60,730 nt of DNA from assembly GCA_019119685.1 (NCBI GenBank), contig DWWN01000041.1, positions 1 through 60,730 on the forward strand. The letters run 5' to 3'. The position numbers and the translations under genes are program-made. Origin of the DNA: Candidatus Faecalibacterium faecigallinarum. Its GTDB lineage: Bacteria > Bacillota > Clostridia > Oscillospirales > Ruminococcaceae. Shown one piece after another: positions 1,710 to 54,133 of this stretch; within the stretch, counting starts at the first letter, position 1; each line of letters starts with the position of its first letter. The notes below the pieces were generated by a model. That model ran no database searches and was not told the origin of the DNA. It saw nothing but the letters and a program-made list of their open reading frames with translations.

Positions 1710-2708
1710 GTGGAAGCTACCAAGAAATCCACCGGCCAGATCATCAAGAGCTGGCTCGGCAATAACGCCATCATCGTGCTGATGGTCCTCGTATCCATCA
1801 TTGTCGGCATCATCCACCCCAACTTCTTTGGTCCGACCAACATCATCAACCTGCTCAAGAACGTGTCCATCCGCTACATCATCGCGCTGGGCATCTCGGG
1901 CTGTCTGATCACCACCGGCAACGACCTGTCGGCCGGCCGTCTGGCTGGCTTTGCCGCCTGCCTGGCCTGCATCTTTGCCCAGAACGCAGACGCGCCCAAC
2001 AAGTTCTATCCCGGCCTGCCCACCCTGCCCACCCCGGTGGTCTTTATCCTGGTCATGGCCATCTGCGCCGTGGTCGGCCTGTGCAACGGCCTGGTCGTCT
2101 CCTACCTGCGGGTGCAGCCCTTCATCGCCACCCTGGGTATGCAGCAGGTGGTGTACGGTATCTGCCTGGTCTACACCGGCGGTACCCCCATCGGCTCTTT
2201 GAACTCGGGCTTCACCTCCATCGCCATCGACAGCTTCCTCGGCATCCCCATCCTGATCTGGATCGCCGTCATCGTGGCTGTTTTCTTCTGGTTCCTGTAC
2301 AACAAGACCCGCCACGGCAAGTATATGTACGCCATCGGCGGCAACGAGTCCGCTGCTGAGGTCGCCGGCGTCAACGTCGCGGCCACCAAGATCCGCATTT
2401 ACGCCCTGGCCTCCTGCATGTTCGGCCTGGCCGGCTGCCTGCTGGCTGCCAAGTCCGGCGGCGCATCGGTCAACACCGCCCAGAGCTACGAGCTGGACGC
2501 CATCGCGGCGGCCACCATCGGCGGCGTTTCCACCACCGGCGGCGTGGGCACCGTCCCCGGCATCCTGGTCGGCGTGCTGGTCTTTGAGCTGATGAAGGTG
2601 GCGCTGCAGTTCATGAACGTCAACTCCTCTTACACCTACATCGTTCAGGGCCTGGTCATCATCCTGGCTGTCGCCATCGACATCCGCAAGTACCTGGCCA
2701 AGAAGTAA
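1710..2708 (+). CDS. mglC: Sugar ABC importer permease, CUT2 type
   Basis: A 332-residue very hydrophobic protein with about eight to ten membrane segments and the small-residue-rich loops typical of MglC/RbsC permeases, for example the ATIGGVSTTGG stretch near residue 270. It forms the membrane channel with the upstream MglA ATPase. The start is GTG at 1710, chosen because an AAGGAGG site sits 10 nt ahead and the N-terminus then matches the family layout of a short cytoplasmic tail before the first helix. It is the last gene of the operon as seen. No terminator with a T-run on this strand follows directly; the next feature is a structured repeat on the other strand. Confidence 0.88.
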   Translation: MEATKKSTGQIIKSWLGNNAIIVLMVLVSIIVGIIHPNFFGPTNIINLLKNVSIRYIIALGISGCLITTGNDLSAGRLAGFAACLACIFAQNADAPNKFYPGLPTLPTPVVFILVMAICAVVGLCNGLVVSYLRVQPFIATLGMQQVVYGICLVYTGGTPIGSLNSGFTSIAIDSFLGIPILIWIAVIVAVFFWFLYNKTRHGKYMYAIGGNESAAEVAGVNVAATKIRIYALASCMFGLAGCLLAAKSGGASVNTAQSYELDAIAAATIGGVSTTGGVGTVPGILVGVLVFELMKVALQFMNVNSSYTYIVQGLVIILAVAIDIRKYLAKK

Positions 2709-2740
2709 ATCTTTTCCGCACTGTCCGACAGAGGGCCACT

Positions 2741-2926
2741 AAAAAAACGTCCCGCCCGGACGACATGTGCGTCCGGGCGGGACACATACAGGGAAATTCA
2801 GCGCAGAGAGTGTGCGAGCCGCCTTGCGGCGAGTGCGCGGTTCTGCGCTGAATTTTGTCCCCAGGGGAATATTAGGGGGAAGGAATTTCTGTCGCGCTGC
2901 TGCGCGCAGAAATGGGTTCCCCCTAA
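2741..2926 (-). ncRNA. Copy A of a three-hairpin structured element ending in an intrinsic terminator
   Basis: Read on the minus strand from 2926 to 2741, the element has three stems. Hairpin 1 pairs TTAGGGGGAA with TTCCCCCTAA and continues through ATTTCTG/CAGAAAT. Hairpin 2 pairs AAATTCAGCGCAGA with TCTGCGCTGAATTT and carries an apical CGCC-GCAA-GGCG hairpin. Hairpin 3 pairs GTCCCGCCCGGACG with its exact complement around the loop CACATGT and is followed by seven T. A second copy lies at 53847-54029 on the plus strand. Stems 2 and 3 differ between copies but remain paired. It could be a small RNA, or a mobile palindromic repeat that carries a terminator. No coding role is apparent, and I do not recognise a named RNA family. 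Confidence 0.7.
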
Positions 2927-2950
2927 AGCGTGGCGCTTTTGCGCCACGCT
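2925..2950. repeat. Perfect GC-rich hairpin beside copy A
   Basis: AAGCGTGGCGC and GCGCCACGCTT flank a four-T centre, giving an 11-bp perfect stem that abuts hairpin 1 of the structured element. It has no T-run on the plus strand. Its role is unknown. It has no equivalent beside copy B. Confidence 0.5.
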
Positions 2951-3013
2951 TGGGCGGCCCTCTTGCATTTCCCTTCCACAATATTTATACTAAGCTTAAA
3001 GGAGGGAGTTCCC

Positions 3014-3334
3014 ATGACTGAACACGACGCCCAGCCCGCCGCCCAGACGGCAGAGGAGCGGGAGGCCCAGCTGGCCGCGCGGGAAGCCGCCCTGGCGGCC
3101 CGCGAAGCCGAACTTGCCGCCCGCGAGGCCGAGGCCGCCCAGGGCTCCGCCCCGCACAAAGGCGGCCTGCTGAACAACGGCGACCCCCACTTCAAAAACG
3201 AGAAGGAAAAGATCTACGACCACTTCCCCCTCAGCGTCCACCAGATGGACATCCTGATCGGGGTGCTGGTGGCGCTGATCGCCCTGTTCGTCTTTCTTGG
3301 GGTCAACCACATCAGCTTTTTCGGGCTGTTTTGA
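3014..3334 (+). CDS. Small coiled-coil protein with one C-terminal membrane segment
   Basis: A 106-residue protein of unknown function. Residues about 20-45 contain near-identical heptads of the form LAAREAA/LAAREAE, which predict a short charged coiled coil. A charged linker follows, then a single hydrophobic segment near the C-terminus (about residues 80-103). The start at 3014 has a strong GGAGGGAG site. The topology suggests a tail-anchored or single-pass membrane protein whose coil projects into the cytoplasm. It is monocistronic, with a terminator just after it. I do not recognise a named family. Confidence 0.75.
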   Translation: MTEHDAQPAAQTAEEREAQLAAREAALAAREAELAAREAEAAQGSAPHKGGLLNNGDPHFKNEKEKIYDHFPLSVHQMDILIGVLVALIALFVFLGVNHISFFGLF

Positions 3335-31369: not shown

Positions 31370-31400
31370 AAGACGTGCTTGCGCAGCACGCCTTTTTGTT
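31370..31400. terminator. Bidirectional terminator between DUF5655-like and rodA genes
   Basis: CGTGCT and AGCACG pair around TGCGC, with A6 before and T5 after, serving both convergent genes. Confidence 0.8.
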
Positions 31401-37457: not shown

Positions 37458-37487
37458 GCGTTTTCGTGTGGAAAGGGCAGTGTGCCG

Positions 37488-37802
37488 TCAGCGGCCGCGG
37501 CCGCCTCCGCCGCCATGGCTCCGGCCGCCGCCCATGCCGCCGAATCCGCCGGGACGGCCGCCCATCCCGCCGCGGGGAGGCCGCGGGCCCATGGGCGGGC
37601 GAGGACCACGCGGGCCGCGGAAACCGCCGCCCATCGGCGGACGGGGCGGGCGGGGAGGACGGGAGCCATAGCCGCCGCCCCAGAACCTGCTGCGCGGGGG
37701 ACGCGGCGGAGGCGGAGGCCCGTCATAGGGGCCGCGTGGGCCGCGCGGCATCAGGATGGCCAGCAGGACCACCACGATGATGACCACGATCACAATTTCC
37801 AT
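37488..37802 (-). CDS. Small membrane protein with Gly/Pro/Arg-rich tail
   Basis: A 104-residue protein. One hydrophobic helix opens the protein (residues 2-19), and the remaining 85 residues are almost entirely Gly, Pro and Arg. The last 17 residues match, with one change, the end of the TPM-domain protein encoded just upstream (GGMGGG, then SHGGGGGRGR). The tail is probably disordered. It looks like a cut-down relative of the neighbouring protein's C-terminus. No function can be assigned. Confidence 0.7.
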   Translation of the reverse strand: MEIVIVVIIVVVLLAILMPRGPRGPYDGPPPPPRPPRSRFWGGGYGSRPPRPPRPPMGGGFRGPRGPRPPMGPRPPRGGMGGRPGGFGGMGGGRSHGGGGGRGR

Positions 37803-37835
37803 GGCATTTCCTTCTTTCTCACTGCAAGCGCAGCG

Positions 37836-38759
37836 TTACCGGCCGCGGCCGCCACCGCCGCCATGGCTGGAGCCGCCGCCCATGCCGCCGAATCCGCCGC
37901 CAAAGCCGCCTCCACCGAAGCTGCCGCCGCCGAACCCGCCAAAACCACCGCCGCCGTAGGGCGGGCGGGGTCCCCTGGGGGGACGCGGGGGCGGGGGCGG
38001 CGGAGGACCGCGGCGCGGAGGCCGGGGCCCTCTGGGCGGGCGCGGGCCGCGGGGCCCGAAGTGGCTGCCCAGGCACCAGCCAAAGCAGAAGGGGAACGTA
38101 TTGCCCAAAAAGTTGCCGAACACCAAAATCAGCATCACCACGGCCAGCGCCCCCACCAGGACGAACACGCCCAGGTTCATGACGCTGCCATAGGGCGGGT
38201 CTGCGGGGGCGGGCTGGCCGCTGGCCAGGTCCACGCCGTAGATGTCCGCGATGGCGCCGGCCACCGCATCGGCGCAGGTGCGCACCGCGGCGTCATAGTT
38301 GCGGGCGGCGAAATCGTCCTCCATCGTCTGGGACAGGGTGCTGGCCTGCCGGTCGATGGTGGTGTTGCGGAAGCCGTCGCCATAAGTCAGGTAATAGTCG
38401 CCGTCGGCATAGAGGGGGGACTCCATCACCAGCAGGAGCAGAACGCCGTTGTTGTGCTCCTTGCTGCCGATGCCCCAGGCGTTGAACGCCTCCAGGGCGT
38501 ATTCCTCGGTGGAGGCGCTGCCGGTGTACTGGACCGTCAGCACCCCGATCTGTGCGCCGGAACAGCTGGCTTCCAGCTGGCCGTTCAGCTGTTCGAGGTA
38601 GGCGGTGGTGTCCTCCGAGAGGACGTCCGCGTCATCCACTACGCACTCGCTCTGGGGCAGGTCGGGCAGAGTGACGGCGGCCCAGGCCGGGACGGCCAGC
38701 CCCACCGCCGCCACAACGGCCACGGCGCAGGCCGACAGCCGCTTCAAGATCGTTTTCAT
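37836..38759 (-). CDS. TPM-domain protein with Gly/Pro-rich C-terminal tail
   Basis: A 307-residue protein with a signal peptide (residues 1-27), a TPM (TLP18.3/Psb32) domain (about 36-165; VVDDADVLSEDTTAYLEQLN opens it) outside the membrane, a membrane helix (about 190-215), and a long Gly/Pro/Arg tail inside. TPM proteins of this layout have been linked to membrane or photosystem upkeep elsewhere; here the role is unknown. It overlaps the LemA-like gene by 4 nt, the usual TPM-LemA pairing in bacteria. Confidence 0.85.
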   Translation of the reverse strand: MKTILKRLSACAVAVVAAVGLAVPAWAAVTLPDLPQSECVVDDADVLSEDTTAYLEQLNGQLEASCSGAQIGVLTVQYTGSASTEEYALEAFNAWGIGSKEHNNGVLLLLVMESPLYADGDYYLTYGDGFRNTTIDRQASTLSQTMEDDFAARNYDAAVRTCADAVAGAIADIYGVDLASGQPAPADPPYGSVMNLGVFVLVGALAVVMLILVFGNFLGNTFPFCFGWCLGSHFGPRGPRPPRGPRPPRRGPPPPPPPRPPRGPRPPYGGGGFGGFGGGSFGGGGFGGGFGGMGGGSSHGGGGGRGR

Positions 38760-52956: not shown

Positions 52957-53223
52957 AGGGCGTAACTCTCCTTTTTCCGTAAAAAGCACAACAAAAAAGC
53001 CATATCCGCCCTGTTTATGAATCAGAAACAAGGAAAGATATAGCTTTCGCGCCCGTTATTATAATACACGCCGCGCCGCTTGTCAAGAGGCGCGGGTCGG
53101 CTTTCCATTTCCTTGACGCCGTGTTATAATAGGGGCATATTCCAGAACGCTGTTTTGCTGAAAGCAGGCCCGCGCCTGTTTCATCCATACAAAGCAAACC
53201 AAAACCCAAGCGAGGTGCAAACC

Positions 53224-53841
53224 ATGAAAGTCCTTATGATCAACGGCAGCCCCCGGGCCGGGGGCAATACGAGTATTGCGCTCGCAGAAATGGAAAAAGT
53301 TTTTGCAGAGGAAGGCATCGAGACCGAGACCATCCAGATCGGCGCCCAGGCCATCCGCGGCTGCATCGCCTGCGGCAGCTGCGCCAAACTGGGCCGCTGC
53401 GTCTTTGACGATGCGGTCAACCAGGCGGCCCCCAAGTTCGAGGCTGCGGACGGGCTGGTGGTGGCCTCCCCGGTCTACTACGCTTCGGCCAACGGCACCC
53501 TTGTCTCCTTCCTGGACCGGCTGTTCTACAGCACCCCCTTTGACAAGACCATGAAGGTGGGCGCCAGCGTGGTGGTGGCCCGCCGGGGCGGCCTGTCGGC
53601 CACCTTTGACGAGCTGAACAAGTACTTCACCATCGCCGGGATGCCGGTGGCCTCCAGCCGGTACTGGAACAGCGTCCACGGCCGCCTGCCCGGCGAGGCC
53701 GCCCAGGACGCCGAGGGCCTGCAGACCATGCGGGTGCTGGCCCGGAACATGGCTTTCCTCCTCAAGAGCATCGCCCTTGGCAAGGAAAAGTACGGCCTGC
53801 CCGCCAAGGAAGCCCCCCAGCAGACAAACTTTATCCGCTAA
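53224..53841 (+). CDS. NADPH-dependent FMN reductase / iron-sulfur flavoprotein-like protein
   Basis: A 205-residue flavodoxin-fold protein. NGSPRAGGNTSIAL is the FMN phosphate loop, and GCIACGSCAKLGRC carries the cysteine cluster seen in iron-sulfur flavoproteins of anaerobes. ASPVYYASANGTL follows as the FMN ring contact. It reduces an unknown acceptor in the cytoplasm. The start at 53224 follows a GAGG-like site (AGCGAGGTG). Copy B of the structured element begins 5 nt after its stop codon. Confidence 0.9.
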   Translation: MKVLMINGSPRAGGNTSIALAEMEKVFAEEGIETETIQIGAQAIRGCIACGSCAKLGRCVFDDAVNQAAPKFEAADGLVVASPVYYASANGTLVSFLDRLFYSTPFDKTMKVGASVVVARRGGLSATFDELNKYFTIAGMPVASSRYWNSVHGRLPGEAAQDAEGLQTMRVLARNMAFLLKSIALGKEKYGLPAKEAPQQTNFIR

Positions 53842-53846
53842 AGCTG

Positions 53847-54029
53847 TTAGGGGGAACCCATTTCTGCGCGCAGTCGCGCGACAGAAATTCCTTCCCCCTA
53901 ATATCCCCCTGGGGACAAAATTTGCCGCTAAACCGCACACTCGGCCTTGCGGCCTCGCACACTCTCAGCGGCAAATTTCCCTGGTTGTGTCCCGTCCATC
54001 CGCACATGTCGGCTGGACGGGACTTTTTT
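53847..54029 (+). ncRNA. Copy B of the three-hairpin structured element with terminator
   Basis: Same order of parts as copy A at 2741-2926. Hairpin 1 is nearly identical (TTAGGGGGAA/TTCCCCCTAA). Hairpin 2 pairs AAATTTGCCGCT with AGCGGCAAATTT, with an apical GGCC-TTGC-GGCC. Hairpin 3 pairs GTCCCGTCCATCCG with CGGCTGGACGGGAC around the same loop CACATGT and ends in six T. Hairpin 3 has at least three compensated base pairs against copy A and one mismatch. It directly follows the flavoprotein gene and probably serves as its terminator. Confidence 0.72.
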
Positions 54030-54133
54030 GACAAACTGCACCCGCCCCAAAAGGGCGGGTCCTTTTTGCATCTCTTGACAACGCCCCTGACTCTATGCTA
54101 TCGTGTCAGGGAAACGTGCAAAGGAGACAAACG

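Follow-up and report, generated by a model that had tools for sequence, protein, structure and literature searches.

The locus near the left end of the window (the whole 60,730-nt stretch of Candidatus Faecalibacterium faecigallinarum DNA analysed here) raises the question of whether a sequence that keeps three hairpins by compensatory change must be an RNA gene. A first-pass annotation, made from the letters alone, had described a two-copy element with a constant apical hairpin flank and an intrinsic terminator at its end, and had proposed a possible new structured RNA. The two copies indeed lie on opposite strands and share all three hairpins and their order (Table 1), and they align in two ungapped blocks with 91% (97 nt) and 82% (76 nt) identity. 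The earlier hairpin numbers follow the minus-strand order, so that the "stem 3" with the CACATGT loop is hairpin 1 here. Copy A with its flanks (2735-2975) folds at -149 kcal/mol compared to a shuffle mean of -93.7 (z -11.2), and none of 200 shuffles was as low; ORFs of 80 and 84 aa run across it. No tRNA or tmRNA was found within the window, and no Rfam family (release 15) reached its gathering score over it. A permissive Rfam scan of ten element loci returned four matches, all below the gathering score and all to unrelated families, and a known RNA family was therefore rejected. Group II domain V was also considered for hairpin 2, by eye, and was rejected because the pairing did not fit. Elsewhere in the window, a GC-rich stretch carries two 77-nt direct repeats that are 87% alike (37486-37562 and 37834-37910).

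Table 1. Positions of the element copies and associated features in the window.
Feature	Position	Strand	Remarks
Copy A	2749-2924	+	Three hairpins, ordered as in copy B
Copy A, left-end A-run	2741..2747	+	Only recognisable rest of the left end CAGACTGTCRAAAAA known from better copies; on the minus strand, a T-run after hairpin 1
Copy A, hairpin 1	2749..2783	+	7-nt loop ACATGTG; minus strand reads as an intrinsic-terminator-like hairpin followed by the T-run
Copy A, hairpin 2	2791..2858	+	Conserved apical motif GAGTGTGCGAG...CGAGTGCGCGGTT; lower stem covaries strongly
Copy A, hairpin 3	2875..2923	+	GGGGGAA..TTCCCCC and ATTTCTG..CAGAAAT, with internal loop GGA/GGG
Copy A, right-end hairpin	2927..2950	+	AGCGTGGCGC-TTTT-GCGCCACGCT; holds the right terminal inverted repeat
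AGAGGGCC, left half of short inverted repeat around copy A	2730..2737	+	By eye
GGCCCTCT, right half of short inverted repeat around copy A	2956..2963	+	By eye
Copy B	53849-54023	-	Three hairpins, ordered as in copy A
Copy B, hairpin 1	53989..54023	-	
Copy B, hairpin 2	53915..53981	-	
Copy B, hairpin 3	53850..53898	-	Stop codon of the plus-strand ORF 53080-53841 lies a few nt from its end
Terminator-like hairpin directly beyond the left end of copy B	54040..54060	+	
Empty-site terminator hairpin (part)	31374..31394	-	A congener (L043) has the element between two copies of this terminator

The complete element is about 210 nt long. From the left, it consists of an A-rich end, hairpin 1 (loop ACATGTG or a variant), a linker ending in CAGGGAAAT, hairpin 2, whose stem is long and variable and whose apex is GAGTGTGCGAG..CGAGTGCGCGGTT, a second linker, GTCCCCAGGGG.ATATTA, and hairpin 3, to which many copies add a right-end hairpin, AGCGTG..CACGCT. 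At least five A residues occupy the eight nucleotides preceding hairpin 1 in 88 of 111 copies. The description as a three-hairpin unit thus holds for copies A and B, whereas complete copies have the right-end hairpin as a fourth; this hairpin is absent from copies that abut a stop codon, such as copy B.

The fold of the element is maintained. On an RNAalifold consensus drawn from the same 40 own-genome copies, which favours the structure on the share of cells paired, 99.2% of the 2434 cells at 61 pairs are paired, and 19 of the 61 pairs change on both sides (177 cells). None of 500 shuffles attained any of five pairing measures. When the partners were shifted by 1-3 columns, only 35-56% of cells remained paired. 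The loops and the hairpin 2 apex are nearly fixed while the three internal hairpins change in a compensatory fashion, and the apex flanks, already called constant from two copies, are among the best-conserved positions. The compensatory changes and the selection for structure that the first-pass annotation had read from copies A and B are thus borne out, by shuffle tests on the 40 copies and by covariation over both these and a larger set of 105 insert-free sequences. In this larger set, all distinct and uninterrupted, the 55 pairs with a Watson-Crick majority hold 104 G-U cells vs 28 A-C cells on the plus strand (23:5, 64:10, and 10:8 in hairpins 1, 2, and 3), which is a count of sequences and not of events. 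Because an A-C cell is a G-U on the opposite strand, the plus strand is favoured, either as RNA or as single-stranded DNA. We also compared copy pairs at five orthologous sites, the site pairs kept from 45 raw rows once identical, near-identical-flank, and insert-bearing pairs had been excluded, and found 13 double changes, 7 single changes with the pairing preserved, and 7 broken pairs; some of these differences swap whole subtypes, and gene conversion or re-insertion is possible there.

The element is present in dozens of copies rather than two. In the own genome (G000; 2.06 Mb in 71 contigs, 85% complete), BLAST gave at least 40 matches at E 4.2e-42 or better and nine short, weak ones with 40 of 85 candidates scored. 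A covariance model built on hairpins 2 and 3 for the genome searches gave at least 43 matches at 120 bits or more with 150 of 1213 candidates scored, of which at least four are cut by contig ends and possibly represent the same copy twice. About eleven insert-bearing copies lie beyond these 43, and the weaker model matches comprise insert-bearing copies, contig-end fragments, degenerate copies, and antisense echoes. The model also found further copies in related genomes of the genus, a check that the first-pass annotation had named: 11 of 61 genomes, equivalent to 11 of the 31 from the window's genus with the own genome included, are carriers, with 1 to at least 54 matches each under filters stricter than those of the own-genome search, and none of the 30 genomes outside the genus gave a match. 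A pattern scan of genome contigs gave at least 98 stretches. Among those listed, 71 carry Faecalibacterium titles, many of them naming avian isolates, and 22 are Oscillospiraceae; Gemmiger and Pullilachnospira contribute 1 each, and the remaining 3 look like chance. In the pattern matches L135, L164, and L145, the hairpin architecture is missing by eye, and they were discounted as chance. Copy A had no match in the phage and plasmid collections, and a phage or plasmid origin was rejected on this basis. One stretch, L086, appears by eye to be a strongly decayed copy in AT-rich sequence that has kept end-like sequences around a broken core.

The copies sit mostly at gene 3' ends. A home-made gene caller placed 98 copies: convergent genes flank 43 of them and divergent genes 2, and in 3 copies one side has no called gene. 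A neighbour turns its 3' end toward the right side of the element in 81 of 96 cases and toward the left side in 57 of 97. Where the neighbours are co-directional, the two orientations occur 37 vs 13 times (binomial p 0.0009, with related genomes not being independent), and 16 vs 9 times when the own genome is taken by itself. In the commoner orientation, the transcript of the upstream gene reaches hairpin 1 last, as a hairpin and then U. The intrinsic terminator that had been placed at the end of the element is present on the minus strand, as hairpin 1 followed by a T-run; a consensus terminator scan listed it for copy A and did not list hairpin 1 of copy B, which is followed by T6 by eye on the minus strand. 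A terminator role for the minus strand is plausible, although it fits awkwardly with the plus-strand G-U evidence.

The ends of the element and the sequences around it point to transposition. The best copies have imperfect terminal inverted repeats. Where duplications bound the copy, the left end, read inward, is like CAGACTGTCGAAAAAG and the right end like CAGCGTGTCGCAAAAG, and in L007 the two agree at 13 of 16 positions. All 12 exact own-genome matches to AGRCTGTCRAAAA are left ends of copies, and with one mismatch the pattern gave 31 matches vs 16 for its reverse. When the left end was recognised by at least 6 of 8 positions of AGACTGTC and the right end by at least 8 of 9 positions of CGACACGCT, 23 of 94 insert-free copies had both ends and 25 had neither. 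We then examined the 110 of 136 copies that were distinct and had full flanks. A direct repeat between the two flanks scored at least 16 in 16 of these 110 copies vs 1 of 435 cross-paired controls, and at least 20 in 13 copies vs no control, while the other 94 copies had no flanking repeat above the threshold. The 16 repeats are 23-43 nt long and mostly comprise a whole terminator hairpin; 14 of them, the exceptions being L054 and L099, form a hairpin of at least eight pairs on at least one side. An empty-site search, for which 13 of 16 candidate rows were listed, revealed three orthologous sites with one terminator vs two around the element (L166/L128, L053/L067, and L043/window). In a further pair, L070/L150, the insertion adjoins a terminator without duplication, and in L037/L172 the insertion seems to have split a terminator. 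The short inverted repeat around copy A, AGAGGGCC/GGCCCTCT, is probably another split terminator. The side taken as empty in L029/L099 and L099/L082 still has element-like remnants, and the other rows showed no clear pattern.

Terminal inverted repeats, duplicated terminators, empty sites, and patchy presence together indicate a mobile element with a conserved fold. What stands of the "possible new structured RNA" is thus the fold itself; its surroundings are those of a high-copy interspersed mobile repeat, and not of an RNA gene or cis-regulator. Like bacterial MITEs, the element is short, non-coding, and intergenic, with terminal inverted repeats, target duplication, and many copies, and a MITE with terminator duplication is well supported. 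In contrast to such MITEs, its multi-hairpin core is kept by compensatory change and its target is an intrinsic terminator. The kind of element is therefore ordinary, while the target and the maintained fold are unusual. The pneumococcal repeats BOX, RUP, and SPRITE, likened here by their descriptions, are likewise interspersed and insert into one another, and SPRITE is described as terminator-like (PMC10969869). A further comparison is with REP, BIME, and REPIN sequences, which are also extragenic palindromes. A REP/BIME-like origin, with a REP-associated tyrosine transposase and a fold that acts as single-stranded DNA, would suit the high copy number, and the strand-asymmetric pairing would also suit single-stranded DNA. 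However, the element is far longer than REPs, for which 20-40 bp is given (PMC3733652), and it has inverted ends and long terminator duplications, so we find such an origin scarcely credible.

Which transposase could have moved the element? IS1182-type transposase matches were found in 24 of 61 genomes, in 8 of them above the curated cut-off, and 11 of the 30 loci retrieved were examined. One of these, L192, from another family of the same order, contains an intact 484-aa ORF (NF033551, E 3.6e-115, above the cut-off) bounded by the ends CAGACTGTCGAAAAAC and CAGACTGTCGAAGAAC. By eye, the left end of L192 matches the left end of our element at 15 of 16 positions, and the right end of the element matches the left end of L192 at 12 of 16. 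A 32-nt palindrome lies beyond each end of L192, a duplicated terminator in this one element, so that both the ends and the target behaviour of our element have a counterpart in L192. The two palindromes (L192:1358-1389 and 2915-2946) differ, when read directly, at the two central bases only, and the right one is the reverse complement of the left, as if inverted. Related but differing ends were found in L198, from the same genus (CAGACTGTCTAAC), L216 (CAGCCTGTCGAAAAAG), L191 (CAGACCGCTGACAAAG), and L193, L194, and L215 (CTGTTGACAAA); L191 and L216 sit, by eye, between differing terminator-like hairpins, and no ends could be assigned to L195, L196, L197, and L199 (4 of the 11 loci).

The likeness to the IS1182 family (NF033551, including IS1272) thus comprises nearly identical ends in L192 and the use of hairpin targets. 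The differences are that the element has no transposase gene, and that its conserved three-hairpin core was not seen in ten IS loci. The hairpin 2 motif was found in none of these 10 loci, and hence no known parent has the interior of the element. IS1272 is reported to choose inverted-repeat targets of 22-30 bp and to replace the target hairpin without duplication (PMC5678879), whereas here the hairpin is duplicated. The own genome, at 85% completeness, yielded a single IS1182-type gene, with an internal TAG and no matching ends, and no intact parent. A search for the parent by end pattern alone was rejected: CAGNNTGTCGNAAAAG occurs at 5 own-genome places vs 1 for the control, and at the places inspected no transposase was linked to these or to the AGRCTGTCRAAAA matches. 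The assignment of the parent thus rests on the ends and the target behaviour, and not on a cognate transposase from the same cell, and the IS1182 link appears likely. In the main text of a MITE review (PMC10969869), a term search for IS1182 gave no hit; among the open-licence PMC matches listed, none dealt with repeats like this one in Faecalibacterium or with MITEs of IS1182, which we do not put forward as a claim of absence. Separately, the same IS1182-type element adjoins the same terminator-like hairpin in two species (L190/L197 in the own genome and L196 in G002), with an in-frame TAG in the own copy.

We consider it probable that the element is a MITE that an IS1182-type transposase moves in trans and directs to terminators. 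Such a transposase would recognise the ends and cut at the base of the terminator hairpin, and a cut at this position would turn the hairpin into a long target-site duplication. The targeting of terminators, combined with the element's own terminator-like hairpin (hairpin 1 and its U-tract on the minus strand), would make the insertion nearly harmless, because the preceding gene would retain a transcription stop. A SINE-like retroelement, copied via a plus-strand RNA, would also account for long target duplications and for selection on the plus-strand fold, and the repeats are indeed long and variable in length, with G-U over A-C cells at 104 to 28. Against this, the inverted ends are shared by an IS1182 element around which the same duplication is seen, and we regard retroelement-like copying as highly improbable.

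The fold could have a further role. The 25 copies with neither end recognisable are still 96.6% paired, compared to a maximum of 87.9% in 200 shuffles, and their hairpin 2 apex has 93% identity vs a mean of 83% over all columns; in copies with both ends, pairing is 99.3% and identity is 98% at the apex and 90% over all columns. The same picture would result if these copies had lost their ends through truncation and not with age. Together with the strong covariation and a hairpin 2 motif that is common to elements in other Oscillospiraceae records, the kept fold of the end-less copies is what a new stand-alone structured RNA would lead us to expect, that is, a small RNA or 3'-UTR regulator with a host function, whose copies are paralogous RNA genes. 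However, the copy number is high and patchy, the flanking duplications involve the terminators of unrelated genes, and there are empty sites and terminal inverted repeats. Furthermore, no sigma-70-like promoter was detected around copy A (2650-3050) in a consensus scan, and the single one near copy B is located outside the element. A stand-alone RNA is thus unlikely, and the MITE remains our preferred reading. Within it, the plus-strand fold, and hairpin 2 above all, may act additionally as RNA or single-stranded DNA, given that the plus strand tolerates G-U and that copies without ends keep the fold; this is a weaker suggestion than the transposition steps. A plus-strand partner of the fold is a testable idea. 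In its strongest version, which we offer tentatively and do not expect to hold, the three-hairpin core would be a plus-strand nucleic-acid module that outlives the transposon, a mobile RNA or single-stranded DNA device with a conserved partner that a transposase has seeded into many 3' untranslated regions.

If the MITE reading is correct, the element represents a class of transposon that targets the intrinsic terminator and copies it as its target duplication, and it would connect IS1182 transposases with the targeting of hairpins. A single genome would then have many genes ending in one and the same mobile fold, which would provide natural replicates for the function of a shared 3'-end structure. 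The case is also a warning that covariation by itself is no proof of an RNA gene.

The hairpin 2 apex also occurs among different outer hairpins, in 22 Oscillospiraceae stretches and two viral contigs (L173, L174, and L181 are included in this set); the two viral-contig matches may be host DNA. In this second architecture, which has the hairpin 2 motif GAGTGTGCGAG..CGAGTGCGCGG, a hairpin 1 loop RCRTGYR lies alongside in 14 of 24 stretches, and the other 10 all come from the assembly SUG991. Four of the 24 have a flank repeat with a score of 26-27, each a terminator-like palindrome, compared to a best score of 15 in 70 controls, and L137 and L161 have TGTCAAAAA-like ends by eye.

Several own-genome copies of the element carry inserts (L070, L071, L072, L073, L074, L077, L078, L080, L081, and L088). 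The inserts are structured-looking, of two types and about 110-120 nt long (longer in L074), and lie mostly between hairpins 2 and 3, with L081 having one between hairpins 1 and 2 in addition. At one orthologous site, L041 has no insert and L140 has two, and the inserts therefore look mobile themselves. The pattern GNRGCGGAGCNGGGGCNGC has 18 exact own-genome matches, of which 7 lie no more than about 110 nt away from a contig end, and its count is at the control level when mismatches are allowed. The core of one insert type is also found outside the element in the own genome, where we inspected 13 loci (L221-L233), and in several places it is framed by the palindromes CTCCC.CGCGTGCGG and GGGCC.GAGAGGG.
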